A stretch of DNA of 64,000 nt from Aurantiochytrium sp. KH105 (Eukaryota; Sar; Bigyra; Thraustochytrida; Thraustochytriidae). The notes beneath the pieces were generated by a model, which made no database searches, was not told the DNA's origin, and saw only the letters and a list, made by a program, of their open reading frames with translations. Each line of letters starts with the position of its first letter. Positions within the stretch are counted from its first letter, which is position 1. The DNA is taken from contig BGKB01000029.1 of the NCBI GenBank assembly GCA_003116975.1, forward strand, positions 186,001 through 250,000. Reading direction: 5' to 3'. Below, piece after piece: positions 24,717-64,000 of this stretch. The translations under genes were made by a program, and so were the position numbers.

Positions 24717-27700
24717 ATGTCAGCCCAATCCGTGAGCGAAGCCGAGCAGGCGCAAGCATGTCAAGTTGTCGAGAGAGTTTGCGCGATAGCCAATGAGGGC
24801 TTCGGACAAGAGCTACGGCTTGAGGTTGCCAACGAGTTGGTCGAGGCCATGCGCAAGTATGCGAAGAGCGAACATGTGCAGAAGGAGGCCTGCGGAGCTT
24901 TTGCGAAGTTCGCAGCCAAGAACGACCGCAACAAAGTGATCCTCGCTCAAGAGCTCGGCATCGGCAAGGAGATCCTCGCGGCCATGCGCAATCATTCCAG
25001 GAGCGAAGATGTTCAGAAAAATGCCTGCTCTGCTCTTTGGAGTCTTGCAGTCGATACTCGCAACAAAGAGATTCTCGGGCAGGAGCTAAAGGCCGGCAAG
25101 GAGATCGTTATGGCCATGCGTAACCATCCCATGAGCGCAGTCGTCCAGGAGAATGCATGTGGAGCGCTTCTCAGTCTAGCGTTTCAAAGCCGCAACAAAG
25201 AGACTCTCGGGCAGGAGCTAAAGGTTGGTGACGAGATTGTTGAGGCCATGCGCAATCATCCCTGGAGCGAATCTGTTCAAAAACAAGCATGTCGAGCTCT
25301 GCTCAATCTCGCATCCAACCAACGCAACCGTGTGGTCCTTGGACAAGAGCTTGAAGTCGGCAAGGACGTCGTTACGGCAATGCGCAACCATCGCGGAAGC
25401 GAGAGCTTGCAGGAGAAAGCATGCGGGGCACTTGCGAATCTCGCATCGAACAACAATCGCAATCAAGTGATCCTCGGACAAGAGCTCGAGGTTGGCAAAG
25501 AGATTGTCGCGGCAATGCGCAACCATTCCGAAAGCGAACTTGTTCAGAAGAATGCATGCGGAGCGTTGTCGTTTCTCGCATCCAACAAACGCAATCATGT
25601 GGTCCTCGGGCAGGACCTTAAGGTTGCCAACGAGATCGTTGTTGCCATGCGCAAGCATCCCAAGAGCGAATCTGTTCAGAAGAATGCCTGCTCTGCTCTT
25701 CGGAATCTCGCAGCCAATCGCCACAACATGGTGATCCTCGGGCAAAAGCTCGAGGTTGTTAAGGGGATAGTTGCGGCCATGCGCAACCATCCTGGAAGCG
25801 AATCTGTTCAAAAGAATGCCTGCTCTGCTCTTCATAAACTCGCAGCCAACGACCGCAACATGGTGGTGCTTGAACAAAAGGTCGAGGTCGGTAAGGAGAT
25901 TGTCGCGGCCATGCGCAACCACCTTAGGAGCGAGTCTGTTCAAAAATTCGCCTGCTGCGCTCTTGATACTCTCGCATTCAACGACCGCAACAAGGTCATC
26001 CTCGGACAAGAGCTCGAGGTCGGCAAGGAGATCGTCGCAGCCATGCGCAACCATCCCGAAAATGACCTTATCCAAAAAACCGCCTGCTCTGCGCTTTGGA
26101 ATCTCGCAGAAGATGCTCACAACAAGATTATTCTTGGGCAAGAGCTCGAGGTCGGCAAGGAGATCGTCACGGCGATGCGCAATCATCCCAAGAGCGAAGG
26201 CGTTCAGAAACTTGCCTGCTCTGCTCTTTGGAATCTCGCAGTCAATAATGATCGCAACAAGGTGATCCTTGGGCAAGAGCTTGAAGTCGGCAAGGAGATC
26301 ATCGCGGCCATGCGAAAGCATTCCGAGAGTGAATCTGTTCAGGAGAGTGCCTGCGGAGCTCTTAAGGGGCTCGTGGTGGCCAATGCTCGCAACCAGGAAA
26401 TCCTCGCGCAAGAGCTTGAGGTCGGCAAGGAGATTGCTGTGGCCATGCGCTTGCATCTTGGGAGCGCAGGTGTCCAATATTTGGCATGCGCTGCTCTTTC
26501 GAATCTTGCAGATAACAACTGCAACCAAATTATCTTCGGGCAAAAGCTCCAGGTCGGGAAAGACATCCTCGAGGCCATGCGCAAGCATCCAGGAAGTGAA
26601 ATTGTTCAAAGACAAGCGTGCGAAACTCTATCGAAACTCGCAGCTAACGACCGCAATCAGGTGATTCTCGAGCAAGAGCTCCAGGTTAGCAAGGAGATCG
26701 TCGCCGCCATGCGCAATCATCCCGGGAGCGAAGCTGTACAGGAGGATGCCTGCGGAGCTCTTTACAATCTCGCAGCCAATCCGCGGAACAAGGACATTCT
26801 CGGGCAAGAGCTCAAGGTCGGCAACGAGATCGTCGAGGCCATGCGCAATCATTCCGGGAGTGAAGGTGTCCAGAAGCAGGCCTGTGGAGCTTTGTGGAAT
26901 CTTGCAGCCAGAAATGCCCGCAATTGTGAAATCCTTGGGCAAGAACACAAGGTCGGGAAGGAGATTGTCGCGGCCATGCGTAACCATCCCGGAAGTGCTA
27001 TCATTCAGGAGCATGCCTGTGGAGCGCTTTCGTGTCTCGCAGCCAATACTCGCAACCAAGTGATACTCGAGCAATACCTCGAGGTAGGCAAGGAGATCCT
27101 GGCAGCCATGCGCAAACACCGCTGGAGCGAAGATGTTCAGAAGCAAGCATGCGGAGCTCTTGGGAATCTTGTCTTGAACAATAACCGCAATCAGGTAATT
27201 CTCGGACAAGAGCTTGAGGTCGGCGAGGAGATCGCCGTGGCTATGCGCGTTCATCCCAGGAGCGCAGCTGTCGTAGAAAATGCCTGCGGAGTTTTGGGGA
27301 GACTTGCAGTCAATGTCCGAAACAAAGTGATTCTCGGGCAAAAGGTAGGGGTCGGCAAAGATATCATTACGGTCATGCGCAAGCATCCAGGGAGCGCAAT
27401 TCTTCAAAAGAATGCCTGTTTTGCGCTTTGGAATCTCGCAAGCAATGATCGCAACAGGGAGATCCTCGGGCAGGACCTCAAGGCCGGCGAGGAGATTGTC
27501 GCGGCCATGCGCAACCATCCCAAAAGCGAATATGTTCAGGAATATGCCTGCGCTGCTCTTTGTGATCTCGCATTCAATGATCGCAACAATAAGATCCTCG
27601 GACAAGACCTCGAGGTCAGCAAGGAGATCGTCGCGGCAATGCGCAACCATTCCATGAGCGCAGTCATCCAGGAGAGAGCATGCGGAGCTCTCTGGAATCT

Positions 27701-29114
27701 CGCAGCCAACGCCCGCAACCAGGAAATCCTTGGGCAAGAACTTGAGGTTGGCAAGGAGATCGTCGCGGCCATGCGCAACCATCCCGAAAGCGAATATATT
27801 CAGAAATGTGCCTGCTCTGCTCTTCACAATCTCGCAGTAAACGACCGCAACAAGGAGATCCTCGGGCAAGACCTCGAGGTCGGCAAGGAGATTGTCGCGG
27901 CCATGCGCAACCATCCCGAAAGCGCAAACATTCAGGAGAAAGCATGTGGAGCTCTTTGCAATCTCTCGGTCAACGATCGCAACAGGGTGATCCTCGGGCA
28001 AGACCTCGAGGTCGGCAAGGAGATCGTCGCGGCCATGCGCAACCATCCCGAAAGCGCAAACATTCAGGAGAAAGCATGTGGAGCTCTTCGGAATCTCGCA
28101 GCCAAGAATGCTCGTAATTGTGAGATCTTTGGGCAAGAGCTTGAGGTCGGCAAAGAAATCGTTGCGGCCATGCGCAAGCATCAAGGGAGCGTAATCGTCC
28201 AAGAAAACGCATGCGGAGCTCTTCGGAATCTCGCAGCCAACGCCCGCAACCAGGAAATCCTTGGGCAAGAACTTGAGGTTGGCAAGGAGATCGTCGCGGC
28301 CATGCGCATCCATCCCGAAAGCGAATATATTCAGATCAGTGCCTGCTCTGCTCTTAACAATCTCGCAGTAAACGACCGCAACAAGAAGATTCTCGGGCAA
28401 GACCTCGAGGTCGGCAAGGAGATCGTCGCGGCAATGCGCAACCATCTCAAAAGCGAGTCTGTTCAGGTAAGTGCCTGCTATGCTCTTCGGAAGCTCGCAG
28501 TTGACGACCGCAACAAGGAGATCCTTGGGCAAGAGCTTGGGGCCGGCATCGAGATCGCTGCGGCCATGCGCAACCATTCCGAGAGCGAAATTATTCAAGA
28601 GATAGCATGCGGAGCCCTTGGGAATCTCGCATTCAAAAATGTTCGCAACAAGGAGAACCTCGGGCAGGATCTCAGGGTCGGCAACGAGATTGTCGCGGCC
28701 ATGCGCAAGCATCCCGGGAGCGCAATCATCCAGACGAATGCGTGCAAAGCTCTCTTCAGTCTCACGTATAACAAATGCAACCGTATAATTCTCGTGCAAG
28801 GCCTCGAGGTCGGCAAAGAGATCGTCGCGGCAATGCGCAACCACTCTCGGAGCAAGACTGTGCTGGAACATGCGTGCATGCTTTTTTCAGCACTCTCTTG
28901 TGCTCCATCCTCGAAGGATATTCTTCGAGATCAAGGTGCTTTGCAGGCAGTCGAACGTGCTTGTAACCAGTTCAAATCGCTTCAAGCTGCAAAAGTCGCG
29001 AAATCGAACCTTTCCGCAAAGAAAGTGGACTTTCGCTTCACTTTGTTCTCCATTGTAGGCCTACTGAGCTTCCTCTTGTACATTGCGTTCGGTACCTCGA
29101 CGATTGACAGATAA
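24717..29114 (+). CDS. Giant armadillo-type repeat protein with C-terminal tail anchor (31 repeats)
   Basis: The protein has 1465 residues and starts at the ATG at 24717. After a 44-residue leader it is built of 31 repeats, each starting with MR (mostly MRNHP or MRKHP). The consensus is MRNHPxSExVQxxACGAL followed by NLAxNxRNxxILGQELEVGKEIVAA-type residues. Most units are 44 residues (132 bp); eight (units 1, 5, 11, 12, 16, 18, 25, 29) have 45. The pattern is that of armadillo/Vac8-type helical repeats forming a solenoid. The last 60 residues break the pattern and end in a hydrophobic helix (LFSIVGLLSFLLYIAFG) with a short STIDR tail, as in tail-anchored membrane proteins. Repeats 22-23 and 26-27 are nearly identical in DNA. 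A membrane-tethered protein-binding scaffold is the likely role; the partner is unknown. Confidence 0.85.
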   Translation: MSAQSVSEAEQAQACQVVERVCAIANEGFGQELRLEVANELVEAMRKYAKSEHVQKEACGAFAKFAAKNDRNKVILAQELGIGKEILAAMRNHSRSEDVQKNACSALWSLAVDTRNKEILGQELKAGKEIVMAMRNHPMSAVVQENACGALLSLAFQSRNKETLGQELKVGDEIVEAMRNHPWSESVQKQACRALLNLASNQRNRVVLGQELEVGKDVVTAMRNHRGSESLQEKACGALANLASNNNRNQVILGQELEVGKEIVAAMRNHSESELVQKNACGALSFLASNKRNHVVLGQDLKVANEIVVAMRKHPKSESVQKNACSALRNLAANRHNMVILGQKLEVVKGIVAAMRNHPGSESVQKNACSALHKLAANDRNMVVLEQKVEVGKEIVAAMRNHLRSESVQKFACCALDTLAFNDRNKVILGQELEVGKEIVAAMRNHPENDLIQKTACSALWNLAEDAHNKIILGQELEVGKEIVTAMRNHPKSEGVQKLACSALWNLAVNNDRNKVILGQELEVGKEIIAAMRKHSESESVQESACGALKGLVVANARNQEILAQELEVGKEIAVAMRLHLGSAGVQYLACAALSNLADNNCNQIIFGQKLQVGKDILEAMRKHPGSEIVQRQACETLSKLAANDRNQVILEQELQVSKEIVAAMRNHPGSEAVQEDACGALYNLAANPRNKDILGQELKVGNEIVEAMRNHSGSEGVQKQACGALWNLAARNARNCEILGQEHKVGKEIVAAMRNHPGSAIIQEHACGALSCLAANTRNQVILEQYLEVGKEILAAMRKHRWSEDVQKQACGALGNLVLNNNRNQVILGQELEVGEEIAVAMRVHPRSAAVVENACGVLGRLAVNVRNKVILGQKVGVGKDIITVMRKHPGSAILQKNACFALWNLASNDRNREILGQDLKAGEEIVAAMRNHPKSEYVQEYACAALCDLAFNDRNNKILGQDLEVSKEIVAAMRNHSMSAVIQERACGALWNLAANARNQEILGQELEVGKEIVAAMRNHPESEYIQKCACSALHNLAVNDRNKEILGQDLEVGKEIVAAMRNHPESANIQEKACGALCNLSVNDRNRVILGQDLEVGKEIVAAMRNHPESANIQEKACGALRNLAAKNARNCEIFGQELEVGKEIVAAMRKHQGSVIVQENACGALRNLAANARNQEILGQELEVGKEIVAAMRIHPESEYIQISACSALNNLAVNDRNKKILGQDLEVGKEIVAAMRNHLKSESVQVSACYALRKLAVDDRNKEILGQELGAGIEIAAAMRNHSESEIIQEIACGALGNLAFKNVRNKENLGQDLRVGNEIVAAMRKHPGSAIIQTNACKALFSLTYNKCNRIILVQGLEVGKEIVAAMRNHSRSKTVLEHACMLFSALSCAPSSKDILRDQGALQAVERACNQFKSLQAAKVAKSNLSAKKVDFRFTLFSIVGLLSFLLYIAFGTSTIDR

Positions 29115-38011: not shown

Positions 38012-39173
38012 TCTTCTGTCCTGGTCTGGCCGCTGCCGCTGTTATGCTGCTTCAACTCTCGCTTGCCAATGGACTTGGTTCACCAGCTCAGCCCGACTTG
38101 CGCTCGTGAAACGTGATCTCTCGAGTCGCACGCGACCCTCGCCCCACCCCGCTTCACACCACGCGGACTTGCGCTCTGCGTCTGCCGAACTCGTGGTCTG
38201 GTCTGCAGCGTCTCGGGCCTTCTGCCAGTCTGCAGCGCAAGGATGGACTTGCGCAGGCCTCTGTCTCTCTGGCTGTAGCTGGCAAGACAGCGAGAGCCCA
38301 GCCCAGCCCGGCCGCCGTCGCCGTCTCACGCTCACAACGGTTGCGACACTTGGGACGCGTCCCGCTGAACGGCTCTACATAGTAGGCCCATTCATTTGTA
38401 TTGCGTGCATGAGGACCACAACGACGCGAGGCCTTGCTTGTTGCAGTGCTGCGGCGGCTGCACGGGCATTCCAGGACAAAGGCCATGGAGTAGGGAGGAG
38501 ACCTTGATCGGTCTTTCGCGCATCGTGCGAGTAAGATGCTTCTCGTGTGTGTGTTTGGGGGAAAGGAAGTAGTAGGCTGGGAGGCAAGGAGAACGATGGA
38601 CGACGGCAGATCTCCGGAAGTCTCGATCTCGTAGACGACAATCTAATGGCATGACCAGGCGGCACAGATCCATTGATACCTCGTCAACGTCGAAATCTGC
38701 ATTTGACTAAATTCGAATTGAGGTCGGGCCATCTCATCTCTGAACGCTTTGCACGCGCCACCTTGTTATGGGGGGGAAAAGAAACTCCGAGAGACCATTC
38801 CATCGTTCAACAAATCATCATCATGGCCTGGGATCTAAAGAAGTACTCGCGACTTTCACCTTGTCTTCACATTAAGCTTTTCGTTGCAGGAGCGACCAAG
38901 TGCAATTTGCCGGAGTGCCATCCGGGCCCTTGAGCCGCCAACGGATTTTTTTTTTCCCCTTTTTCCTGGTTTGCTTTTGCATGGTCTCCTACTTGACAGT
39001 GAGTACGGCCTATAGCTAGCTGAGCGGACTTGGAGGCCAAACGCGTGCGCGAAGGACCTCGGCGCGGGCCCAGCCTGCCCGCGGGAGCAGGCGTCAGGCA
39101 GGCAGAGGATCGCGGGCAAGCTTTGCTCGCTCGCCAGAGGGCACGGCCCAAACGTCGGGCCGTGTCTGGCGCC
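38012..39173. promoter_or_regulatory. Divergent region between PA-domain protein and CCP gene
   Basis: This 1.16-kb region contains both promoters. It has GC-rich patches near both ends and a T-run at 38946-38956. No gene was seen. An open frame reaching back from the CCP gene to 39030 starts with TTG, not ATG. Confidence 0.45.
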
Positions 39174-42100
39174 ATGAACTTTAGAGCAGCCGGCAGCGGC
39201 GGAGCTAACGGCGCAACAGCGACAAGCAGCAATAATGTGTACGGAAACAAGGCGGTCGCCATTCTCACGAAACTACACACGCTTGCGGCAAATCGAACAG
39301 ATGGCGTGACAGAGGATGACGCGCGGAATTGCCAGGAATGTCTTGCGAATCTTTGCGTGCTTGCGCGTAAACCAGCAGCCAAGGCCATCATTCTGAAAAG
39401 TATCTGCACTCTGCTCTTGAACGCCTTTCGTCGGTACAGAGCGTATCCATCGACATTACAAGGTGCCTGCGATCTCGCGTGGAGCTTGGCATATCATGAC
39501 GATGTCACGCAGGGTGTCTTTGCCGAGAGCGGAATCACTGTTGCCGTCATTGAGTGCGCCTTGCATCACGAATCGCTCTTGAACATTCTTCGCTCAGCCT
39601 ATGGAGCTTTATCCAGTCTCTGCAGACATCCGGCAAATCAAGGTCTAGCGCGCAAGCATGGCATGCTGGATCTCGTGCATCGAACGCTTCAAAGGGACCA
39701 CTCACAGGACCCAGTACTTGTGCAATATACGCTCGATTGCGCGGCGTCCATTTGCCACGCTCACAAGGACAACGGAAATCACTTTCTTGCCTACGATGGT
39801 GCAAAACATGTGGTGAGTGCGCTCGAGGCGCTCATCCAGCATCAAGGTGTTGTGCGATCGGCCTGCATCGTGCTCGTCGTCTTGCGCGACCGCGCGGGGG
39901 GACCGAAAGCTGTTGCGAGCACCGGCTGCGTGCCAGTTCTCACGAGTGCAATCAACAAGCACACCACGGTGCCAGAGCTGGAGCACATTTTGTGCGCGTT
40001 GCTGGGGCAGCTCATGCGCGAAGTGCCGAGCACAATCCCGGAAGCACTTTCGGCTGGTGCGATTGGGGCATCGCTTGCTGCCATGAAAGCCAATCCCGGG
40101 CACTACTTTATTGTTGAGGCCGGGTGCATGATTCTAGGGGCGTGCTGCTCGCTCATTCTTCGTCGATCTGGTCAAGACCGTGCGCACCGAGGCGGGAGCT
40201 TTGGGCGACGAAGAAGCCGCAACAAGGTTTCAGACGCTGACGAGGCGGACAAGGAAACCAACGCTGCCGCCGAGGAACTCGAGATTGCGGTGGACGGCGT
40301 GGGCTGGGCAGGCATTGCAGCCGTGCTGCAAAGCACGGACGCCAAACCGAGTGCGTACGTCTCTTGTTTGCGCGTTCTCGTTCAGTTTTGCCAGATATCA
40401 AAGGGCAAAGGTCAAGCGCTTCAACGTGTCCACGATCTCCTACCGCGCGTTTTTATAGTCTGCGGAGCTCTTTCAGGCCCGCTTGCGCCCCAGGGACTCG
40501 GAATCATGGAGACGCTGCTCTTGAGTGATGCCGTGGACGTTCTTGCTGCTTCGGCCGTGTGTTGGACTTCGATTTGCATACTTACAATCCTCAAGGAGGC
40601 GCCAACGAGCGAAAAATCTTGCGCTGACAATTCTTTCCAGCCACACGCGAACAATTTTGCGGCCGTACGTGTGCACGGCAAGCTACAGGGGGATGCAGCT
40701 GCACTTTTGGCATGGAGAAGTGCCGCCGGGTCTTTGACAACAATCGAGATGCAAAAGATTGTGGCTGGGGCCTTGTGTCGGCTTAAACACTTGGAAACTG
40801 ACCGTACACAAGGCTTGCATCGCACGCAACAACGAATTTTTGTCCAGGTGCGCACCACTTTTTTCCTGCTTTCGGCATGGCTAATGACCCGACAAGGTCG
40901 TCAGGATGTGATGAACCTTATCGACCGAGATGTCACTTGGAGTGAACTTCTCGGATTTGCCATGACTTGGATGCGCGAGGCGCGCTGCGTGAGCGAGCTT
41001 CGGCTCAACGTCGGGGAGAACGGAGATCCGTCCATGGAGGACGCTTTACTCGTCATTGTTGCTGCCCTACAATTCATTGTCTGTACGTTACTCAAGGAAC
41101 GCCAGCTCACGCTGCGCTGCATGGCCTCAAACGGTGGAGTCACGCTCGTATTACAAATGCAAAAGCTTGTCAAGTCACTCGAGGAGATTGGGCGTCAAGG
41201 AGGGCGTCTTGTGCGGCTTCAATGCATGGCCCTGGATGCAACTGCTGCAATTCTTCGCCTGATTGGATCTGGCACGACGCCAAACGCAAACGGATTCCCC
41301 GAACAGGATGATCTTCTGCAGCATTTCAATGATGCAGCGGCGATCGAAGCGCGAGATCTCCGTTCGCTGAAAATCAGAGCACAAGAGGGCAAAACCGAGC
41401 TGGCCGAGGACGAGGACACCAACGACCGTGCCGGAGTGAATGCGCCCGAGTACGACACGGACGAAGCAGATCATCTTGAAAAAGGTTCCAACAATCGAAG
41501 ATCTGTGACGGGTTCTGAGCAAGAGGAGAACAAGAAAAACCGTGCCGCTCTTGATCGTGACGACGGTGCAGACGACGGCGACGACGACGGGTCAGACGCT
41601 GACGAAGGAGACGCCAACGACGACTCTGACGCTGACGACTCCGATGCTGACGAGGGCGTCAGTGGGGAAGTCGTCACTCGCCTTGAAGCCTCAGAAAATG
41701 CTGGCGCTGATATGCTCGCGGGAAAGACTGCATCTCAAACGGATAAAAAGGCTAGCAAGGCCGGAGCAGAGCAACGTTTGCGGGCAAGTGGGTTTCGCCT
41801 GGAAGCCTTTGTTCCTGGACAAGAAAGTGAGCGTGCACCGGCCAACTTTGTGGCCGTCCTGCCAAAGCTTGTGCACGATCTCACAGACGATGATCTAGAG
41901 CCCTGCATACCTATCGGTCAGCGACTAAATCCTACTGCCGCGCAGACGTTGTCGAAACTTGGTGAATACCAGTCTCGCAAACTTGTTTATGACTGGCGGC
42001 AGTCTCTTGGCGAAGGCGACGGCCGTGCCCGTTCCTCTGTTCCCATGGCGGTCCCTTACTCGGTCGGAACGGAGGAGGCTCTGCAAACGAACGAGCCTTC

Positions 42101-44216
42101 CATTCTGCTTCCAAGTGGGCCCTCGCTATCCCGCACGAGTTCAAGTGGTCTGCACGATCACTTTCTTCGCTTCGAAAGTCGTTTTGAGGGGGGAAACCTT
42201 CTTCAAGCGAGCAGAGTAGGCCCGAGGGAGTACGATTTGGTCATTCGGTCGGATTTACATACACGCTCGCACCATCAATGGTTCTATTTCGCCGTGTCAA
42301 ATACCCACGCCGCTGATGCGAGCGGAAGTGTGCAATACAAGTTCAACATTGTGAACATGACGAAACCAAGCTCAATGTTCGGTGAGGGTATGCAGCCCGT
42401 CATGTATTCCATGAAAGAGGCAAAAGAAGGCCAAGGCAAGGGATGGAGACGGGCCGGCAAGAATATTGCCTATTTTGCAAATTCGTATGCGACCCCGCCA
42501 TCACTTCAGAAAAAGAGCACGAGCGCCAACTACTATACCTTGACCTTTACGTTGACCTTTCCCAATCCAGATGACGTCTACTACGTGGCCATGTGCTACC
42601 CATATACGTACAGCCACCTTCAGGAGTTTCTCGACACGTTGTGTGTCTCTGGAAAGAAGGATAAGAAGTCGCCCATTTTTCGACGAGGGGTGCTGTGCAC
42701 GACCCTAGGGGGTTTGCCATGTGATGAGCTTACCATTACGGATTTCACCGCTTCACCTGCGGAGATCGCAGCGCGGCCCGCCGTGGTTCTCACTGCCCGC
42801 GTGCATCCTGGCGAAGTGGTCGCCAGCTACATGATTGAAGGCACGATTCGTTTCCTGTTGGGAACGAGTGCACTAGCTTGCGCGTTGCGTCGACTGTACT
42901 ACTTTAAGATTGTCCCGATGCTGAATCCGGACGGCGTGTACCATGGAAACTCGCGCACCTCGCTCAGTGGTTGCGACCTGAATCGCGCATGGATTGCACC
43001 CAATCCAAATGTCTTTCCAACGATCTACCACACCAAGCAATTGATTCGGCGCCTCATCGCACAACGCAAGGTATCACTCTATGTGGACTTTCATGGGCAT
43101 TCGCGCAAGAAGAACATTTTTCTTTACGGCGTCGAGTACAAGAAAGCCTCGGCGCGGCCGCGTGACGAGATTGCGCACGATATGTCGAACCCAGTTCGAG
43201 CCTTTCCAAAGCTCATGTCGGAGTCCGAGTACTCGAGCGACATTTTCTCTTTGCCGGACTGCTCATACACCGTGAGTAAGTCGCACGCGCAGGCGGCTCG
43301 CGTCGTCGTAGCCCGAGAGCTTGGCGTGCGCGCCTCGTTTACACTCGAGGCATCATTTTGCGGTGGCGCCTCTGGAACCCTTGATGCTCGTTTGGACGAT
43401 CAGCATTTCAATCCTGAGCACTATCGTCGCATAGGTCTCGGTCTGAGCGATGCTTTGCTGCGAATGAATCATCCAAAGGTGCACGCGGCGCTCCGCCAGC
43501 TTTGTGGAAGTGCGCCTATCGCATTGACGTCGGCACCACCGACGCTACTTGAAGAGTTGTTGGAGCGCACGCTTGGAAAAGCACGAAGTGCGGTCCCTGG
43601 AATTGGCGCAAGCTTCGAGTACAGTGGCGCGGGAGCGCACGCAGAGGCAGTGTCAGGTGGATCGCGAAAAGGTCGGCTCGACGAGCGCTCTCCGACGGCG
43701 GGCTCAAAGAGCTCCGGAACGAGCGCGGGCGGGGTGCCGCATTTCATGCTTGGGAGATCGCGGAGCTTTGCGCGCGGAAAGACGGCAGACCTGGCCCAAG
43801 GAGCACAAGCGGGGCCGAGACCCGATACGTCTTTTCGTTGGCCAGGACCAGATGTCACGACGGCGTCAGATCCTATGGCAACCATGAGAGACATTTTGCA
43901 GCCGCGCGCATCATCATCTGCCGTGACTGTTGTCGCCAAGGGGAAACGGAAAAAGTCCAAGCCGAGAGGCAAGGCCATTTCATCATTGACGACTTCAAAT
44001 TCGTCGTCATCGTCGTCCCCATCTCCGAGTTCTACGCCCACCTCATCGTCTTCAAACGCTGCAAGACGTGGTCGTAGTTCAGGGACGCGGCATCGCGTTA
44101 GCAAACAGAGTTCTGCCCGTTCCCTTCGGGCGACCATCACCGCAAGCGGTACATCTTCGAGCCTTTCGTTGCTACCTGCTGTGCAAAAGTCGTCTCCAAG
44201 TTCGCGGGGACGATAG
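39174..44216 (+). CDS. AGTPBP1: Cytosolic carboxypeptidase, CCP1/AGTPBP1-like (tubulin deglutamylase), M14D
   Basis: This 1680-residue protein starts at the ATG at 39174 (MNFRAAGSGGAN). Residues ~20-700 are an armadillo-like helical region, as in AGTPBP1/Nna1. An acidic, disordered insert (~730-860, DDGSDADEGDANDD) follows. The CCP N-domain (LRTRSHHQWFYF-like, YKFNIVNMTKPSSMF) comes next, then the M14 domain. Its catalytic residues are visible: HPGE (His1211, Glu1214), NPDG (Asn1251), DLNR, FHGHS (His1307) and Glu1392 in TLEASF. The C-terminal ~250 residues are Ser-rich. The family removes glutamates from tubulin tails and other proteins, so it fits the flagellar theme. At ~1680 residues it is longer than the animal enzyme (~1200) because of the acidic insert and tail. 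Confidence 0.92.
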   Translation: MNFRAAGSGGANGATATSSNNVYGNKAVAILTKLHTLAANRTDGVTEDDARNCQECLANLCVLARKPAAKAIILKSICTLLLNAFRRYRAYPSTLQGACDLAWSLAYHDDVTQGVFAESGITVAVIECALHHESLLNILRSAYGALSSLCRHPANQGLARKHGMLDLVHRTLQRDHSQDPVLVQYTLDCAASICHAHKDNGNHFLAYDGAKHVVSALEALIQHQGVVRSACIVLVVLRDRAGGPKAVASTGCVPVLTSAINKHTTVPELEHILCALLGQLMREVPSTIPEALSAGAIGASLAAMKANPGHYFIVEAGCMILGACCSLILRRSGQDRAHRGGSFGRRRSRNKVSDADEADKETNAAAEELEIAVDGVGWAGIAAVLQSTDAKPSAYVSCLRVLVQFCQISKGKGQALQRVHDLLPRVFIVCGALSGPLAPQGLGIMETLLLSDAVDVLAASAVCWTSICILTILKEAPTSEKSCADNSFQPHANNFAAVRVHGKLQGDAAALLAWRSAAGSLTTIEMQKIVAGALCRLKHLETDRTQGLHRTQQRIFVQVRTTFFLLSAWLMTRQGRQDVMNLIDRDVTWSELLGFAMTWMREARCVSELRLNVGENGDPSMEDALLVIVAALQFIVCTLLKERQLTLRCMASNGGVTLVLQMQKLVKSLEEIGRQGGRLVRLQCMALDATAAILRLIGSGTTPNANGFPEQDDLLQHFNDAAAIEARDLRSLKIRAQEGKTELAEDEDTNDRAGVNAPEYDTDEADHLEKGSNNRRSVTGSEQEENKKNRAALDRDDGADDGDDDGSDADEGDANDDSDADDSDADEGVSGEVVTRLEASENAGADMLAGKTASQTDKKASKAGAEQRLRASGFRLEAFVPGQESERAPANFVAVLPKLVHDLTDDDLEPCIPIGQRLNPTAAQTLSKLGEYQSRKLVYDWRQSLGEGDGRARSSVPMAVPYSVGTEEALQTNEPSILLPSGPSLSRTSSSGLHDHFLRFESRFEGGNLLQASRVGPREYDLVIRSDLHTRSHHQWFYFAVSNTHAADASGSVQYKFNIVNMTKPSSMFGEGMQPVMYSMKEAKEGQGKGWRRAGKNIAYFANSYATPPSLQKKSTSANYYTLTFTLTFPNPDDVYYVAMCYPYTYSHLQEFLDTLCVSGKKDKKSPIFRRGVLCTTLGGLPCDELTITDFTASPAEIAARPAVVLTARVHPGEVVASYMIEGTIRFLLGTSALACALRRLYYFKIVPMLNPDGVYHGNSRTSLSGCDLNRAWIAPNPNVFPTIYHTKQLIRRLIAQRKVSLYVDFHGHSRKKNIFLYGVEYKKASARPRDEIAHDMSNPVRAFPKLMSESEYSSDIFSLPDCSYTVSKSHAQAARVVVARELGVRASFTLEASFCGGASGTLDARLDDQHFNPEHYRRIGLGLSDALLRMNHPKVHAALRQLCGSAPIALTSAPPTLLEELLERTLGKARSAVPGIGASFEYSGAGAHAEAVSGGSRKGRLDERSPTAGSKSSGTSAGGVPHFMLGRSRSFARGKTADLAQGAQAGPRPDTSFRWPGPDVTTASDPMATMRDILQPRASSSAVTVVAKGKRKKSKPRGKAISSLTTSNSSSSSSPSPSSTPTSSSSNAARRGRSSGTRHRVSKQSSARSLRATITASGTSSSLSLLPAVQKSSPSSRGR

Positions 44217-45358: not shown

Positions 45359-48300
45359 ATGGCGAACCTCAATTCCGGCGACAACAACAAGTACAGCAGC
45401 AGCAGCAGCAACATCAACGATGACAATAATGCTGGGCCCGACGCTGGGCGAGACCTGGAGGCCACTCTTGGCCTAGAGGAGGACGTCCGCGCGAGAAGGT
45501 CGTCCACGATGTCATCTGCCACGCGAAGACGACGTCGAAGGAGTAGCGGCGCGAGCAGCATGAGTAGCGGAGGCAGCAGTATGCACAGTGTGGTAGAAGT
45601 CCCTCTTGTGTCAGACATATTTCCGAGCGAGACGGTAATCGAGGGCGCCGAGACAAACACCGACAAATTCACAAACCATGGGTCGCGAGAGGGATGCAAC
45701 GCAAGCGCGATTGAGGGCCTAGAAGATCAAGGCGCAGACGCCGAGAGGGACCATCGAATTCCGCAAGACGGCGAAGAACTGCCGCAGGAGGAGGAGTCGG
45801 TCGCAAGTGACTCGCGAAGAAGCGGATTTGCGCTTATTCAATCGCAGATCGCCGAATTCTTTGTGAACAAATATGTAGAAATGGCAATGGCCCTGACGAG
45901 CATTCTTTACATGTGCCTCGTTTATTCCCAGGTCGCCCTTGCATTGCCGGGCTCGCCAGACACCTTTGAGGTGTGGAAGGCCTATTCGATTGCCAGTCTG
46001 GTGTTTCTGTCAATCTTTGCGTGCGACGTGGTGCTCCGTATGCTGGCGTTTGGCCGCTCGTACTGGGCCACGATCGCGAATTGCATGGAGTTCTGTATTG
46101 TGATGGCCGCGCTCGCGCTCGAGCCAATCGTGTATCAGCGTCTTGAAGCCGCCTCATCGGACACTGTTCCGGGCGTAAATGCCGTGACCATCATCAACAG
46201 TGTGCTCAAGCTTCTACTCTTTCTGTTTCGGTACAGACGCTTTGAGTACATTATTTCAATCAAGTATTTGCAGGCACAGGCTCTGTCGAGCCCTATGGAG
46301 TCGCTCTCCGCCTCGGACCGCGTGCTTGATCTCTTGCGCGAAATTCGTCGCAAGTACCCACTGACGACTCGCGAGGCGCAGGAAGTGAACTGGGCGAGCT
46401 ATCTCATTGGCACGCGTCGATTGTACAGCGATATTGCCGTCTATTCGAAGGCGGACGAGGACACCGAGAAGCTTTTCGAGGCCCTCGACGAGGACACAAC
46501 GAACTGGCTGCTCGCGACCTATTCACATGTCCAGCTCCAGGAGTCAGGCGCGAATGCAAATATCTCCCCGCCGGGATCTCCGGGGGCCACGAGTGACGGC
46601 GCGCGCTTGAACGACCTTGGCGAAAGCGATGGTGAGCTGATGCCGGCCTTTTCTCTCGACGATGAGGGCAATTATATTGGCACTTCAGCGACTGAGGAGC
46701 CAGAGTCGGAAAGGGAGGCATCCGAAGATGCCTTGCATTCCGAAACGCAACCTCCTTCGTCACCAAGGCACTTGCTCGGCCCTCGGTCACCCCTTCATGT
46801 ACCGATTCGCGATTCTGGAGGGTCTTCGTTTGTAAAACACCTTGATGCAAGCACCGCGATTGATGGGGTAACACCGGCGACAGGGGACGTCGGTGAGGCT
46901 GCCGGGGATACTCAATCTCGGAGTGCCACAAACGCTGATGATGTTGGGTCGTCGATGGAGGCAAGGGCCTTGAAAATGTCACCCACTATGGCCCCGCACA
47001 TCATTTCTCCGCTTCTCAAACACCAGAACTCGATTCCAAACGACGGCAAAGAGTCAACGGAAAAGGCCGACATTGGATCACCGATGCAAGGTCCGGCGCA
47101 GGAGAACAGCGCCCAAGCTTCGATTCCGATTGACGGACCGCCCGCTGATTTGGGCCGACATATTTCAGGTGGTTCCGTGGGTATTCAAGCGCGAGACTTG
47201 ACATTCCTTATTGAGGCGCTCTTGCGTGAAACGTATACGCCTCCCATGACTCCAGATCATGTTCCTTCCGCAACCCAACGACCTTTTCGTCGCGATCTCG
47301 GTGTAACTCAGGGTGGGCCTGCGAGCATGAGCTACAATAATTTGATTGAGATCAAAAGCGCCGAGGCGACGCGTCCAAATCTTTCTGTCACAACAGAGGA
47401 GGATGGAAAGGTGGAGAATTTGTCCGAGTCAACGATTCACATGGACTCTTCCATGCTGGCTCTCGATGCAAGCTCGGCCTCTATTGTTGGCAAGGCAGAT
47501 GGTCAGGTTGACTCGACCACAAGTCGAGATATTGCCACGTCGGAATCTCGTGCAGGTCACGACACCACGTCTCCAGATGGATCATTTTCGAGCGACTCGC
47601 AAGATGCGGACACTCGCTCCAGTGTCGAGGGTGAGAGTACTGACCAGTCACCATCGATGCTACCCTCCGACTCTTCGGATACTCGTGCTCATGACGATGT
47701 GCTGAAACTTCCGGAGCTCCGTCTGAAGCCCTTGTCACTTCATAATCGAAGTCTGAGCACCAGCGTGGCTGCACGGCGCGGTTCTTCTCAGACCAGGTGG
47801 ATGGATGGATTAAATGGTGATGGAGGCGATGGTCTTGGACGCGACGGCGACGACGACGGCGAAGTAAGCAGGGGGCGCCATTACCGAAGACGCACATCTG
47901 GCGCGGATCGGGAATTCTTGGGCCATGCAGGGTCCGATGAAGATGATGCTGAGCTCGATTATCACCAGCTTCCACCGCCGCCGCCGCATCAGCAGCAGCA
48001 GCAGCAGAACGGGTCTTCGTTTTCCTCGTCGCAGCAACACACTCCACGATCGTCTCCTGTCGTCTCGCAGTCGCAGGAATCGTTGCGGCAGCCACAGTAC
48101 CTGCGGCAGAACCGGGATCGACGCGCGCGAGCAGCGAGGGAGCCGGTTGACCTGGTGGGTGCAGATGGTCTCGAGCGCCTGAAGCTCCTTGCTGGCGAAC
48201 TGAGCCATTTAAAGAGCCTGCGATGGACGCAAGGTGAGCTCGACAGTCTGAATGACAAACTGGACACCTGGGATTTTGACGTCTTTGAGGCGGACACATT

Positions 48301-49810
48301 TTCCGCGGGAAGACCATTGTCGCTTGTCCTGCTAGGGGCGCTCCGCAAAAATCACATTTTCGAGCAGTTCCGTGGCTTGCGGCTTGGCATGGTCGTGAAC
48401 ATGATCAGCAACATTGAAAACGGGTACCGCCGAACGAACCCTTATCACAACCGCGTGCACGCTGCAGACGTTGTGCAAACGACGCACTATTTCATGACGC
48501 ACACGCTATTGCGCAATGCCGTAACGACCCAAGACGTGTTTTGCGCTCTTGTCGCGGCAGCGATTCACGATTATCAGCACCCTGGACTGAACAATGCATT
48601 TCTGGTGGCGACAGGCAACAAGCTCGCTGTGCGGTACAACGATCGCGCGGTTTTGGAGCACATGCACGTGGCTTCTGCTTTTGAAGTGATGCGTTCGAAG
48701 CGTTGCGACATTCTCAAAGCGGTGGGTGGCTTGGACCGGTATTTGGAGGCGCGCGAGACGGTGATCCAGATGGTCTTGGCGACGGATATGAGCCACCACT
48801 TTGAGGGTCTTGAAAAGTTCAACACGGACGTTGTGCAATACTACGAGCGCATAAGCGCGAAGCGAAAGGCGCGGGGTCACAACATGCACAATCACACGGC
48901 CTCGAGCTTGGATTCGATCATTGACGGCGACCTCGAGGGCGGGCTTGCCCTGTCGCCCGAAGGAGGAGCGGAGGACGTCGGGGGCGAGCGTGGGCTTGAG
49001 GATCAAGTTGCTCCTCTTGAGGTGCGACGCACCTTGCTCAAGACGACGCTGCATTGCGCGGACGTGTCAAATCCGGCCAAGGACCCACGCCTGAGTCGGC
49101 ACTGGGCGACGCTCGTGCAAGAGGAGTTTTTTCAGCAAGGCGATCGGGAGCGCGAGGCAGGTCTCAAGATCAGTACTTTTATGGATCGCACCAAGCCTGC
49201 CTTTCCCAAGTCACAGATTGGCTTTATTACGATTATCGTGCGTCCCCTGTTCAACTCGTACTGCCAGTTTTTGTCAACGCTCAAGCCACAGGTGGATTGG
49301 TGCCTTTCGGCCAATCTTGCGCATTGGGAACAGCGACAGGCCGAGGAGGAGGAGGCCCAGGGCTTTGGCGCAGCCTTGCAGTCCACGGGACAGCAGGCCG
49401 GAACCGGGTCGGTGTCCGGGTCGCCGCTCACGGGCCCGAGCAGCTTCCAGCGGCGCAAGTCCTTTCGCTTTGTTTCGTCGCGCATCAAGACGACTTTGTC
49501 GCGTTCGCAGACGAGCGCGCCGTCGAACGAGACGCCCGCGCGGCGTCGCGCCACGCGCTCGGGCGGCCTCGTCGTGGACATTCCTCCACCTTCGCCGCGC
49601 GCAAGTCACACTTCGTGGAGCGCCACGCCTTTTTCGGGGGCGTCGCCAACGCTGCCACCTTCGGCGTCCTCGCAGGCGTCGATGGGAGCCCCCACGGCGC
49701 CACTGTCTGCGCGGATGAGCGGCCCCGCGCCTCTTCGCCGATCGGCCACGGACATGGCCATCAACATAGGCCGCACTTCGAGCTCCAGCTCGCACCGCTT
49801 CTTGCCGTGA
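45359..49810 (+). CDS. Cyclic-nucleotide phosphodiesterase (class I) fused to a voltage-sensor-like 4-TM domain
   Basis: This 1483-residue protein starts at the ATG at 45359. After a Ser-rich, acidic N-terminus come four hydrophobic segments (~168-195, 205-230, 240-262, 274-299). Segments 2-3 follow the S2-S3 pattern of voltage-gated channels (FACDVVLRMLAFG, then an NCMEFCIVMAALAL stretch), and segment 4 ends FRYRRFEYII. There is no pore. A ~650-residue disordered linker (with a poly-Gln run) leads to a class I PDE domain: HNRVHAADVVQ (His1030, His1034, Asp1037), HDYQHPGLNNAF (His1070, Asp1071, His1074) and HCADVSNPAKD (Asp1235). All metal ligands are present, so it should hydrolyse cAMP and/or cGMP at a membrane. 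Whether it senses voltage is inference; the S4 arginines are fewer and closer together than in true sensors. Confidence 0.88.
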   Translation: MANLNSGDNNKYSSSSSNINDDNNAGPDAGRDLEATLGLEEDVRARRSSTMSSATRRRRRRSSGASSMSSGGSSMHSVVEVPLVSDIFPSETVIEGAETNTDKFTNHGSREGCNASAIEGLEDQGADAERDHRIPQDGEELPQEEESVASDSRRSGFALIQSQIAEFFVNKYVEMAMALTSILYMCLVYSQVALALPGSPDTFEVWKAYSIASLVFLSIFACDVVLRMLAFGRSYWATIANCMEFCIVMAALALEPIVYQRLEAASSDTVPGVNAVTIINSVLKLLLFLFRYRRFEYIISIKYLQAQALSSPMESLSASDRVLDLLREIRRKYPLTTREAQEVNWASYLIGTRRLYSDIAVYSKADEDTEKLFEALDEDTTNWLLATYSHVQLQESGANANISPPGSPGATSDGARLNDLGESDGELMPAFSLDDEGNYIGTSATEEPESEREASEDALHSETQPPSSPRHLLGPRSPLHVPIRDSGGSSFVKHLDASTAIDGVTPATGDVGEAAGDTQSRSATNADDVGSSMEARALKMSPTMAPHIISPLLKHQNSIPNDGKESTEKADIGSPMQGPAQENSAQASIPIDGPPADLGRHISGGSVGIQARDLTFLIEALLRETYTPPMTPDHVPSATQRPFRRDLGVTQGGPASMSYNNLIEIKSAEATRPNLSVTTEEDGKVENLSESTIHMDSSMLALDASSASIVGKADGQVDSTTSRDIATSESRAGHDTTSPDGSFSSDSQDADTRSSVEGESTDQSPSMLPSDSSDTRAHDDVLKLPELRLKPLSLHNRSLSTSVAARRGSSQTRWMDGLNGDGGDGLGRDGDDDGEVSRGRHYRRRTSGADREFLGHAGSDEDDAELDYHQLPPPPPHQQQQQQNGSSFSSSQQHTPRSSPVVSQSQESLRQPQYLRQNRDRRARAAREPVDLVGADGLERLKLLAGELSHLKSLRWTQGELDSLNDKLDTWDFDVFEADTFSAGRPLSLVLLGALRKNHIFEQFRGLRLGMVVNMISNIENGYRRTNPYHNRVHAADVVQTTHYFMTHTLLRNAVTTQDVFCALVAAAIHDYQHPGLNNAFLVATGNKLAVRYNDRAVLEHMHVASAFEVMRSKRCDILKAVGGLDRYLEARETVIQMVLATDMSHHFEGLEKFNTDVVQYYERISAKRKARGHNMHNHTASSLDSIIDGDLEGGLALSPEGGAEDVGGERGLEDQVAPLEVRRTLLKTTLHCADVSNPAKDPRLSRHWATLVQEEFFQQGDREREAGLKISTFMDRTKPAFPKSQIGFITIIVRPLFNSYCQFLSTLKPQVDWCLSANLAHWEQRQAEEEEAQGFGAALQSTGQQAGTGSVSGSPLTGPSSFQRRKSFRFVSSRIKTTLSRSQTSAPSNETPARRRATRSGGLVVDIPPPSPRASHTSWSATPFSGASPTLPPSASSQASMGAPTAPLSARMSGPAPLRRSATDMAINIGRTSSSSSHRFLP

Positions 49811-58696: not shown

Positions 58697-60811
58697 ATGC
58701 GTCTTCTGGGCGCCCCACGAGGCACGCGGTCGTGGCTCACGGCCGGCGCGGTGCTCTTGTGCAGCCACTATGTCACGTCGCAGCCCACGCTCCGCGGCGC
58801 CAACGTCGTCGAAGCCGTCAAGGACTCCGTGCGACGAGAGCTCGCTTTTGCTCCGGGCATCTACGCCCCAGATGCCGACCAGGACTCTGCTTGTATTGCA
58901 GCCATCGTCACCAGCAGCATCACCGTTGCCGCATGCAGTCTTGGTCTCGTTGCCTGGTTCACCTACCATCATTCTCCAGTGATGCGTCTCGCTAGCCCCT
59001 GGCTCAAGCACCTCCTCGTGCGCGTCTTTTTCCTCAACGTTGCAGCGATTCTGGCCACCGTGCCGCATCTCGCTTGCGTAACAAGCGCCACGCTTTTCTT
59101 CCTTTCCGCACCCGGCCTTTTCGTAATGCTCGGTTGCGTCGCGATCAAGTCGAAACTCGAGGAGAGACGCGCGAGCCGAAACCGTGCCCGCCGCGCAGGA
59201 GGTCTTGAGCCGCGACCTGCAAGGGTTTCGCCCAAGTTTATGCTCATTGCCGTCTACAGCACCGATGTCATCGCGCTCGCCTTCATCGGGGCCTTCCTAA
59301 TTTGGGAGACCGATACGCTCGAAGACGACAACCGCGCGCTCTGTGTCCATGGAGGCGAAGACCCGAATATTCCCATCGCCGTGCTCTATGGCATGCTTGC
59401 CTTTGTCAGTGTGTTTGGTCTTCTGGCCGCCGCGCGCTCTGCAAGCGTGCTCTCCGTTGGCTACGAATGCTTTGGCAATTTCTTCGTGGCTCTTTGCCTC
59501 TTTTTGCTTGTTGCTCTCCGAATTGCAGACTACGCGTCTATGGGAGGTGATGTCCTGGCAGAGATTATCGTCCTATTGAACACGCTTCTCTCGGCACTCG
59601 TTGCTTTCACTGCGCTTGGCCTCGTCCTTTTGCGCAAATTGCCATACGTGCACATGAGTGAACTCGAAGCCAAGGAAGCCGCTGTCGTGGCCTACGGTCT
59701 CGGTCTCGGCGCGGTACGGCAATTTCCTGGCGGAGACGGAGCCCCCGCGCGCCTCAAGGCCGGAAAACGCGGTTCGGCCGCCACTCTCTTCTTTGACCCT
59801 GTCAATGAGACGAGCTTCGGTGAAGACGACGAAAGCGATGACGGCAGTGACGAGGAAGGCGGCGACGAGCGTCGCATCAAGCGCAGCTCGTCCTGGGTCC
59901 CCGAGGACGGAGGTCAAACTGTCATTTCCCAAATCAATCTCAAGTATGGCCACGTCATGACCGAGCCTTCAACAGCTGGGTCTGCGCGGGGGCTTAGCCC
60001 TCGCGGCGATCGCAGCAAGCGATTCTTTGACACCACACCGTCGCCCCAATCTCCCAAACCAGATGCCGCTGCGAGTGAACCGCAATCTCCAGTACAAGGC
60101 TCGCCCATTGAAATCGAAGCATCAACGCGGATCCAAGCCATTGTTCGCGGCGCCATCACGCGGACAAAGCTTCATCCTGTCATGTGGCGCCAGCGCGCGG
60201 AGGCCGGCCAAAAATCGTCCACACCGGCCTGGCCGAATCTCGAAACGTCCAAGGATGCAAACGACACACGCAACGACCGCTCCGAGTCAGCGGCGCACCG
60301 CGCAGCGACGCGAATTCAAGCCATCTTTCGCGGGCGCAAGACTCGCGCTTGGTTTCGCCACATGCGCGAGGAACTCAAGGCCGCAACGCGGATCCAAGCT
60401 CTCTTTCGCGGGCGAATGTCAAGAAAACACGTGCAGGTGATCAGACGCTCGAGCTCTGCACCGACACCGTCGACGCATGGTCAGGAAGAAGAGATCTTTT
60501 CTTCGGCTCCCATGTTCACAAATGCAGACGGAACATGGTCGGCAGCGCGTCCTGGCAGTATCCAGACGCAAGGTCTTGACGAGCTTGCACTAGGAGACCA
60601 GGGGGCAGCTGCAGGTGCGCGGACTGGTGCCAGAGCGCAGCACCCGGCCTTGGCTGCGGCACGAAGCGCCTCTCCGGACTCTCCAGGCCGATCCGCTTCG
60701 TTTGGGTCAAGATTACTTTCTGTGCGAATTCCAAACGTACAATTGCCAAGGAATCCACTCCGTAGCCCGCGTAGCCCGTCTTCGCATCACAAGCGAAATC
60801 AGACACTTTAA
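58697..60811 (+). CDS. Class C GPCR-like 7TM protein with three C-terminal IQ motifs
   Basis: This 704-residue protein starts at the ATG at 58697. A signal peptide or anchor (1-29) and a short ~35-residue ectodomain precede seven hydrophobic helices at ~66-90, 104-122, 130-151, 180-203, 225-247, 257-279 and 288-313. Class C (GABA-B/mGluR) signatures are visible: HHSPVMRLASPWLKHLL after TM1, VAIKSKLEERR after TM3, VIALAFIGAFLIWETD in TM4 and VLLRKLPYVHM after TM7. There is no Venus-flytrap ligand domain. The cytosolic tail has an acidic patch and three IQ motifs (RIQAIVRGAITR ~477, RIQAIFRGRKTR ~537, RIQALFRGRMSR ~564), expected to bind calmodulin or calmodulin-like light chains. A Ca2+-regulated receptor is inferred; the ligand is unknown. 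Confidence 0.85.
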   Translation: MRLLGAPRGTRSWLTAGAVLLCSHYVTSQPTLRGANVVEAVKDSVRRELAFAPGIYAPDADQDSACIAAIVTSSITVAACSLGLVAWFTYHHSPVMRLASPWLKHLLVRVFFLNVAAILATVPHLACVTSATLFFLSAPGLFVMLGCVAIKSKLEERRASRNRARRAGGLEPRPARVSPKFMLIAVYSTDVIALAFIGAFLIWETDTLEDDNRALCVHGGEDPNIPIAVLYGMLAFVSVFGLLAAARSASVLSVGYECFGNFFVALCLFLLVALRIADYASMGGDVLAEIIVLLNTLLSALVAFTALGLVLLRKLPYVHMSELEAKEAAVVAYGLGLGAVRQFPGGDGAPARLKAGKRGSAATLFFDPVNETSFGEDDESDDGSDEEGGDERRIKRSSSWVPEDGGQTVISQINLKYGHVMTEPSTAGSARGLSPRGDRSKRFFDTTPSPQSPKPDAAASEPQSPVQGSPIEIEASTRIQAIVRGAITRTKLHPVMWRQRAEAGQKSSTPAWPNLETSKDANDTRNDRSESAAHRAATRIQAIFRGRKTRAWFRHMREELKAATRIQALFRGRMSRKHVQVIRRSSSAPTPSTHGQEEEIFSSAPMFTNADGTWSAARPGSIQTQGLDELALGDQGAAAGARTGARAQHPALAAARSASPDSPGRSASFGSRLLSVRIPNVQLPRNPLRSPRSPSSHHKRNQTL

Positions 60812-62074: not shown

Positions 62075-64000
62075 TCAGTCCTCGGCCGTCTCGCGCGCCA
62101 AATAAGCAGCAACAGCCGGAGAAAGCGACGGAGCGTCCGGCCGTACTACAGCGCGAAGCGAACGCAAAACGGCGCTCTCCTGGGCACTGACTCTCTCATC
62201 CGTAGACCGATTGGTCGAGGGCTTTTCATTTCTCGATTTCGCAGAAGGAGAGGATGCTGGAATGATTGACGATGGTGCTGACGCTGTCGAAGCTGATGGC
62301 ATGCGCAGATTGGCTCGGGCCTTGTCAAAATAGGAACGCAGAACAGCGACACGAACTTTACGCATTGAGTTGTTGATACTGTACAGTCGCTTGGATGAAA
62401 GGTCATCAAGTCTTACATCCGAACTGACTGCGTCCGGGCTGGCAAACTTAATTCGAGACAGCGAGAGACCCATGGTCCGCTGCGCGCGAGCTTGCATCGC
62501 CACCTGATGTACAACGTGGCGAGAATTTCCGTATCGAAGATGGTTCACAGCCAAGGCCAAAATTTCAAAAGGGATCGTGACAAGATTCAGAGGCGGGGGG
62601 ACGACAGGGAGGCCAGCGTAGTCGTTGATAAGCTGCATTCGCCCATTCAGGTACACCACATTTGCGGCGTCTTGCGTTTTTTGAAAGGAGAGATTTAGCA
62701 TGGCCACAAGCTGCAAGTGAACCAGATTAACAATACGGTCAGTTAGTGTCGTTCTTCGTCGTCATCCAACGTCGCAGGTGCCCTCGCAAGAAGCTGTAAA
62801 CGTACCAGATTTTGGCCCACAATAACGACCACAAGTAAATGGAGAACAACGAGCGTGTAGAAGGCCACAGTGTCAACAGTTGTCATCGAGACCACCGAGT
62901 CGTCGCCAGGAATCTCCCCCGAAAACAAACTCTCACCGAGAATGATCATGGCACCCTGCAATCCCGTTCGCATCGAGACTGCGCTTTCGCCATCGCCTTC
63001 GGCCGCACCAAGAGAGTCCAAATATACGCCGCCTCCGCCGTCGTAGCGTCGGAGCATAATCACCAGACAAAGAGCATTGCCCAAAAACAAAATTACCAAG
63101 AGAAAGGCGTACGAGGCGAGATCTCCGCCCATCTTGATAATGCTTTCGTAGAGAGGACCGAGACGCTGGTGAAAACTGCTCAAATGCACCAGGCGGTACA
63201 CCGCAAGCAAGGTGCCAACGGCGAGGCTCATTTCCGAAAAACTTACAACCGCAAACGAGTTCCACGTGCCATCTTCCTGGATCCAGCGTGTGGTCTGCGC
63301 ATACTCCTTGTCAAACGGAATGGTGAGAGCCATGGCCCGAAAGCAAAAGGCAACCACGATGCACACCAGGTAGAGACAGTCAATGAGGTTCACCGCGCTC
63401 TTAAAGTACTCACGCGAATTAAAATACATGGCTTGAAGCTCCGAGGCCACAAGACCAAGCGCCCAGGTGTACATGACGCGTTCCACACGAGAAAAAGGAC
63501 GCACTGCGGTTATTTCGACGCTGATCGGACTTGGAGAAAGTGCGTTTGCGCACATGACAGCAACAAAGCCGCAATGTAGCAGGGTAACGCTCAGAAACTT
63601 AAAGTAGGCGGAGTTGATGGCCAATCGGTCACGCCACATAGAAAGCTTGACGGAAAAGGGGGCGAGACACCAAGCAGGCATCATGATGACGAGCTCCATA
63701 AAAATGACAAGCGTGATGACCAAAGTAGCCAGGGACGACGAGGCGTAGCGCTCATAGACTGCAGGAAACCGATCAGGTCGCCACCATTCATAAAACCACA
63801 CCTGATTCTCATTTGTGCCTTGAAACCACTTCGAGGCCACTACACCTTGTATGCGCCGCGAGATGGCCATGTACAGAGCCGAGGTCTCGGCAGGAGGGCG
63901 CATCGTCACAAGAATGTGCTGATACGCTCGCTCAAGAGGATCGATAACTTGGTGCAGAAATTCCGTCGCCACATCTCCGCCCTGCGTTTTGGTTCGAGCG
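62075..64000 (-). CDS. TRP-like cation channel, 3' part, two exons (runs past the window)
   Basis: Exon 1 (62806 to beyond 64000) has no start in the window. Exon 2 is 62075-62710. Removing the 95-nt intron between them gives a continuous S6 ending NLLVAMLNLSFQ, the hallmark of TRP channels. Six or more hydrophobic segments are visible, including LATLVITLVIFMELVIM, SAVNLIDCLYLVCIVVAF, YAFLLVILFLGNALCLVIML (S5-like) and the S6. A pore-like loop carries GLQGAMIILGESLFSG. After S6 the QDAANVVYLNGRMQLINDY and LPVVPPPLN phrases match the post-S6 region of TRPC-type channels. The C-terminus is Ser/Ala-rich. Cation (possibly Ca2+) conductance at a membrane is the family role; gating is unknown. The missing N-terminus may carry ankyrin repeats. 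Confidence 0.85.
62711..62805 (-). other. Spliceosomal intron (95 nt) in the channel gene
   Basis: The minus strand shows donor GTACGT directly after an AAT-CTG codon pair, an in-frame stop, a CTAAC branch-point-like word ~36 nt before the end and acceptor CACTTGCAG. Splicing is phase 0 and restores the conserved S6 NLLVAMLN. Confidence 0.9.

Follow-up and report, generated by a model that had tools for sequence, protein, structure and literature searches.

To our knowledge, enzymes under direct voltage-sensor control are known mainly from the voltage-sensing phosphatases (VSPs), in which a PTEN-type phosphatase is carried on a short linker and S4 is richer in arginine than in the protein described here. 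We analysed a stretch of 64,000 nucleotides (the window) from the thraustochytrid Aurantiochytrium sp. KH105 (assembly GCA_003116975.1, contig BGKB01000029.1, positions 186,001 to 250,000), in which one frame joins helices with homology to S1-S4 to a class I cyclic-nucleotide phosphodiesterase (PDE) with intact catalytic residues; it has no pore, and its S4 is poor in charge. Like the VSPs Ci-VSP and TPTE2, the protein pairs an S1-S4 unit with a cytosolic enzyme and lacks a pore. It is not itself a VSP: Pfam finds no PTEN-type phosphatase domain at an expectation value (E) ≤ 10. With somewhat better than even confidence, we read it as a membrane-tethered, probably cyclic AMP (cAMP)-directed class I PDE whose four-helix, pore-less membrane unit would descend from a voltage sensor and serve mainly as a tether.

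The domain pair as such has already been published. TgPDE4 of Toxoplasma gondii likewise has Ion_trans and PDEase_I in one chain, with the ion-transport domain (E 4.53e-9), a feature described by its authors as "apparently exclusive", embedded in three transmembrane (TM) helices (PMC7720076). Its PDE is degenerate, with many substitutions at catalytic signature residues, and it is listed as unexpressed in tachyzoites (PMC7720076), whereas the thraustochytrid protein has four TM helices and an unsubstituted catalytic set. What is unusual is an intact PDE on a pore-less, voltage-sensor-derived unit. An earlier note on this DNA had drawn the parallels with VSPs and with cyclases, but its list of relatives omitted TgPDE4 (PMC7720076).

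On the cyclase side stand PPTG_13136 and PPTG_13761 of Phytophthora parasitica, Ion_trans-guanylate/adenylate cyclase proteins without pore-helix homology, one such protein being found mainly on a single zoospore flagellum; the family is known from stramenopiles and alveolates (PMC12223298). There the enzyme makes the messenger and here it destroys it, and the TM helices number five and three in the PPTG proteins against four here (PMC12223298). The present protein is no such cyclase, as no nucleotide cyclase domain was found in it by Pfam at E ≤ 10. Paramecium has adenylyl cyclases joined to a K+ channel domain, and hyperpolarisation is linked to the channel-joined cyclase (PMC4588038). Rhodopsin phosphodiesterase (Rh-PDE) also combines a membrane sensor and a PDE in one chain, but through an eight-TM rhodopsin and a 76-residue linker, compared with four voltage-sensor-type TM helices and about 545 linker residues here; it is loosely coupled, with roughly two-fold light dependence (PMC7644710). 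Having four TM helices and no rhodopsin match in Pfam, our protein does not belong to that type. Among oomycetes there are bigrams of a G-protein-coupled receptor (GPCR) and a PDE, which share the order of an N-terminal membrane module and a C-terminal PDE (PMC5784254), and six-TM apicomplexan PDEs and human PDE3 similarly place membrane helices ahead of a class I PDE domain (PMC10865986). The bigram type was set aside on the lack of a Pfam GPCR match and on four helices against a seven-TM module, the six-TM type on four helices with an Ion_trans match here against six there (PMC10865986; 'ion transport', 'ion channel' and 'voltage' do not occur in its main text). In the excerpt available, an account of oomycete domain fusions names phosphodiesterase in a table only, without a channel domain (PMC2705460). 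Among the matches listed in the open-access literature, with subscription journals mostly outside this scope, no voltage-gated PDE was reported.

The frame runs from ATG to TGA at 45359-49810 on the (+) strand, to which all features of the protein given below belong, and comprises 1483 codons with no internal stop in 4449 bases. Kyte-Doolittle hydropathy of the whole frame at a threshold of 1.6 yielded four hydrophobic helices and no further one anywhere: S1, residues 176-196 (45884-45946); S2, residues 207-233 (45977-46057); S3, residues 236-258, where two overlapping runs were merged (46064-46132); and residues 270-291, the hydrophobic part of an S4-like helix with a basic end that extends to residue 302 (46166-46264). 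The segments picked out by the earlier note lie in these helices (FACDVVLRMLAFG in S2, NCMEFCIVMA in S3 and FRYRRFEYII at the S4 end). Its statement that no pore segment is present also holds: after S4 no helix appears at 1.6, and the looser setting of 1.2 adds only residues 1287-1305, within the PDE domain. A voltage-gated ion channel with a pore was therefore rejected, as there is no S5-pore-S6 helix. Net charges are 0 before S1 and then -2 (S1-S2 loop), +2, -2 and +3; since the outer loops would carry -2/-2 and the inner ones +2/+3, both ends of the protein are predicted to be cytosolic.

Homology to voltage sensors comes first from Pfam. A search with the Ion_trans profile (PF00520), as the earlier note had proposed, matched residues 181-294 (45899-46240) at 26.2 bits against a curated cut-off of 25 (5.4e-6 on the full protein), covering the S1-S4 half of the profile only (positions 6-114 of 241), and the membrane segment alone reached 31.4 bits (1.4e-7). 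Ion_trans and PDEase_I are the only Pfam matches at E ≤ 10 in the whole protein. Controls shuffled within 10-residue blocks gave Ion_trans in none of nine cases and other families weakly in four (best E 0.025), and Ion_trans was also absent at E ≤ 10 from a window protein that has a seven-TM-type match. When residues 150-324 were searched against the PDB at E ≤ 10, all 52 distinct sequences found were Nav, Cav, CatSper, TPTE2 or Nav-chimera chains. The best single-stretch E was 0.0014 (7k48) and TPTE2 stood at 0.025; the overall best value, 4.3e-4, belongs to a sodium channel for which three matching stretches are added together, each of them 0.74 or worse. Local alignment to the NaChBac sensor (sequence matched to 6vwx) covered S1-S3 only with a score of 56, a value that 0/500, 0/500 and 1/500 shuffled copies reached when the block length was 7, 10 and 20 residues, respectively. 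A profile search in which the NaChBac row dominated does not count as evidence of homology. The similarity in S1-S3 is well supported for so short a sequence; S4, outside this alignment, is placed more by position. The unit has four TM helices with S1-S4 homology, as a voltage-sensor domain does, S4 again by position.

That the solved relatives of this unit are mostly channel voltage sensors also speaks for a docking role, in which the S1-S4 unit, not itself a sensor of voltage, would join voltage-sensor channels and so recruit the PDE to a channel complex. We think this improbable. There is no direct evidence of any partner, and it is pore helices or coiled coils that usually mediate the assembly of S1-S4 units. 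Macronuclear chromosomes of Euplotes are mostly gene-sized, so some of the PDEase_I/Ion_trans gene pairs in that organism may be fusions. The two kinds of gene are reported to be always adjacent there; this is a link, if no more, between the two functions, and lends docking some further weight (PMC8670190).

The S2 and S3 helices bear out the voltage-sensor character that the earlier note had ascribed to them. Aligned to S2 and S3 of Nav and Cav channels, they show F220 and D223 (FxxD) with R227 in S2, and N241 and E244 (NxxE) in S3. The aromatic F220 and the acids D223 and E244 occupy what we take to be the gating-charge transfer centre, the S3 acid being Glu after N241, compared with mostly Asp in the aligned channels. 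S4 is different. Its basic residues are K284, R291, R293 and R294; read at every third residue, one register holds R291/R294, another K284/R293 followed by E296 and, past the helix, K302, and the third is empty. A voltage sensor would be expected to have a run of several basic residues spaced three apart; here there are at most two per register within the helix, so the note was right to call the charge reduced. Pairwise against NaChBac, K284 and R293 fall on the first and fourth arginines, and its second and third arginines pair with L287 and F290; the S4 of SLC9C1, for comparison, has K1, R2-R5 and K6 (PMC13095418).

Could the protein nevertheless be a genuine voltage-gated PDE, in which S4 movement, acting via residues 301-396, would set the rate of cAMP or cyclic GMP (cGMP) breakdown as VSPs do for phosphoinositides? 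Because the charge-transfer centre is retained, this bolder reading keeps a hold, and the S1-S4 homology and basic S4 end point the same way, as do the Ion_trans/cyclase proteins of stramenopiles and alveolates (PMC12223298) and the link between hyperpolarisation and the channel-joined cyclase of Paramecium (PMC4588038). The S4 registers, with L287 and F290 at the second and third NaChBac arginines, and the roughly 545 flexible residues ahead of the enzyme argue against it. Voltage control of the PDE is thus possible but unproven, and we hold it unlikely. A shade more doubtful is its fullest form, that this would be the first PDE gated directly by membrane potential, with an S1-S4 sensor of small gating charge controlling cAMP breakdown as the counter-arm to the sensor-cyclases.

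The C-terminal half contains a class I PDE catalytic domain, with a Pfam match at residues 1029-1313 (48443-49297; PDEase_I, 3.9e-76). It is complete, as the earlier note had claimed: H1030, H1034, H1070, D1071, D1235 and Q1286 are all present. In a class I enzyme (HNxxH, HDxxH, metal Asp) these presumably supply the proton-donating His, all four ligands of the metals and the invariant Gln. Against the PDB this part matched 102 sequences at E ≤ 1e-20. Among the best 60 of these, ranks 1 to 44 are taken by 42 PDE4 chains and two chains labelled simply 'Phosphodiesterase'; below them come PDE1B, a further PDE4B, PDE8A, PDE7A and PDE3. N1238 lies within a DVSNP motif, the Asn of which we take to be typical of the cAMP-specific PDE4/7/8; cGMP-specific PDE9 has the same residue. 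Since PDE4 chains lead the ranking and the DVSNP Asn is present, cAMP is the likelier substrate and the enzyme is probably cAMP-directed. An insertion interrupts the domain at about residues 1169-1222 (48863-49024, approximate limits), as judged by composition and by the 66 residues that stand between two aligned stretches compared with 20 in 6fg5.

Membrane unit and PDE lie some 545 disorder-type residues apart. Codon usage from seven other ORFs of the window was used to compare all six frames in consecutive 80-codon blocks over residues 1-1440. The annotated frame ranked top in 16 of the 18 blocks, and in the seven blocks of flanking DNA no frame exceeded 0.13 bits per codon. The annotated frame lost in one linker block, residues 801-880, and in one block of the C-terminal tail, residues 1361-1440; in several linker blocks, for example residues 881-960, it led by a narrow margin only. 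This weak contrast would suit two genes or transcripts, with membrane part and PDE as separate products and the intervening frame open by chance or partly translated, as would the 11 Met codons between residues 428 and 815 and the fact that the frame is known from DNA alone. Such a split is very improbable, however, given the absence of stops over the full 4449 bases and a coding signal that favours the annotated frame in most blocks, including six of the seven that start between residues 401 and 881. The uninterrupted frame that the earlier note had reported, together with its codon-usage signal, leads us to treat 45359-49810 as one coding region, and we infer from the open frame that membrane part and PDE would share a single transcript.

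The linker proper, residues 397-940 (46547-48178), has a disorder-type composition, and residues 398-947 have no Pfam match. Ahead of it lies a post-S4 segment, residues 301-396 (46259-46546), distinguished by composition: the hydrophobic fraction is 0.33 over residues 300-396 compared with 0.16-0.28 in the linker beyond. It has no Pfam match, and its best PDB match, a splicing GTPase, is at E 0.25; it is possibly folded and might act as a coupling or regulatory element. The long disorder-type linker itself argues against tight, VSP-like coupling. As Rh-PDE is already loosely coupled over 76 residues, tight coupling across about 545 flexible residues seems unlikely unless residues 301-396 dock on the PDE.

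Together, few same-register charges in S4 and a long disorder-type linker favour a tether over a tightly coupled sensor, and local tethering over strong voltage gating. The sensor-PDE interpretation of the earlier note survives in part: a voltage-sensor-related S1-S4 unit and an intact PDE do share one pore-less frame, whereas S4 registers and linker length speak against voltage sensing with tight coupling. In the tethered arrangement that we favour, the S1-S4 unit would anchor the protein in the membrane with both ends cytosolic, holding a PDE4-like catalytic domain beneath it on a flexible tether of about 545 residues. Its most likely job would be local destruction of cAMP at that membrane. 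The S1-S4 unit would direct the protein to the membrane and perhaps make contacts with partners or within a dimer; any effect on enzyme activity would be a weak modulation at most.

Several observations weigh against this tethered reading. F220, D223 and E244 are all retained, and a mere anchor would not need them; the post-S4 segment, which is possibly ordered, might provide coupling between S4 and the enzyme. S2-S4 alone matched the PDB weakly (best E 0.07), with FlhA in 9 of 36 matches; the FlhA similarity is confined to the loop between S3 and S4 and the first part of S4, and we take it as chance. Modelling did not confirm the fold: Foldseek gave no match at E ≤ 0.001 with either of two single-sequence, low-confidence AlphaFold models of the membrane region (mean predicted local distance difference test score, pLDDT, 63 and 57), although both place helices at or near the expected positions. 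For the first model, the best 50 of 284 matches included a transcription factor, CdvB2, 14-3-3 and other helical proteins; for the second, the best 50 of 79 had the Ci-VSP sensor in tenth place (E 3.7, TM-score 0.36) amid unrelated bundles. The models weigh neither for nor against a voltage-sensor fold. Finally, relatives of the membrane unit and of the PDE were looked for in prokaryote genomes and viral contigs, and those of the membrane unit also in plasmids. None was confirmed, as expected of collections that do not cover eukaryotes. The viral contigs likewise yielded no NaChBac relative that could serve as an alignment row.

Even as a tether, the protein would represent reuse of a voltage-sensor domain with a further class of enzyme. 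With its catalytic residues intact, a PDE on a unit of voltage-sensor type would lead from membrane potential to cAMP breakdown within one protein, and it might serve as a tool for controlling cAMP electrically. If voltage-gated, it would be the counterpart of the sensor-cyclase protein on the zoospore flagellum (PMC12223298), and voltage would govern the making as well as the breakdown of the messenger in a single, perhaps flagellar, membrane.

Both tails of the protein are distinguished by composition. The N-terminal tail, residues 1-149 (45359-45805), has few hydrophobic residues and is probably disordered and cytosolic. The C-terminal tail, residues 1331-1483 (49349-49807), is Ser-rich and contains RRKS and RRAT motifs. 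In all, six R(R/K)x(S/T) motifs, which we take to be of PKA type, occur in disorder-type parts of the protein (45494-45505, 45533-45544, 47774-47785, 47885-47896, 49451-49462 and 49544-49555), and feedback by cAMP-dependent kinase through these putative sites is possible.

The window has 56% G+C and carries several long intronless ORFs and a eukaryotic gene set. Next upstream of the PDE gene is a 1728-residue ORF (39030-44216, +) whose C-terminal half holds a zinc carboxypeptidase (M14) and a cytosolic-carboxypeptidase N-terminal domain. A 1465-residue armadillo/LRRK2-ARM repeat protein is encoded at 24717-29114 (+). At 58697-60811 (+), a 704-residue ORF weakly matches class C GPCRs (7tm_3 at 22.6 bits, where the cut-off is 33.5) and has IQ calmodulin-binding motifs C-terminal to that match. 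A cation-channel-type ORF at 62743-63999 (-), the frame of which leaves the window end, matches Ion_trans at 29.4 bits and PKD_channel at 21.5 bits, the latter below cut-off.

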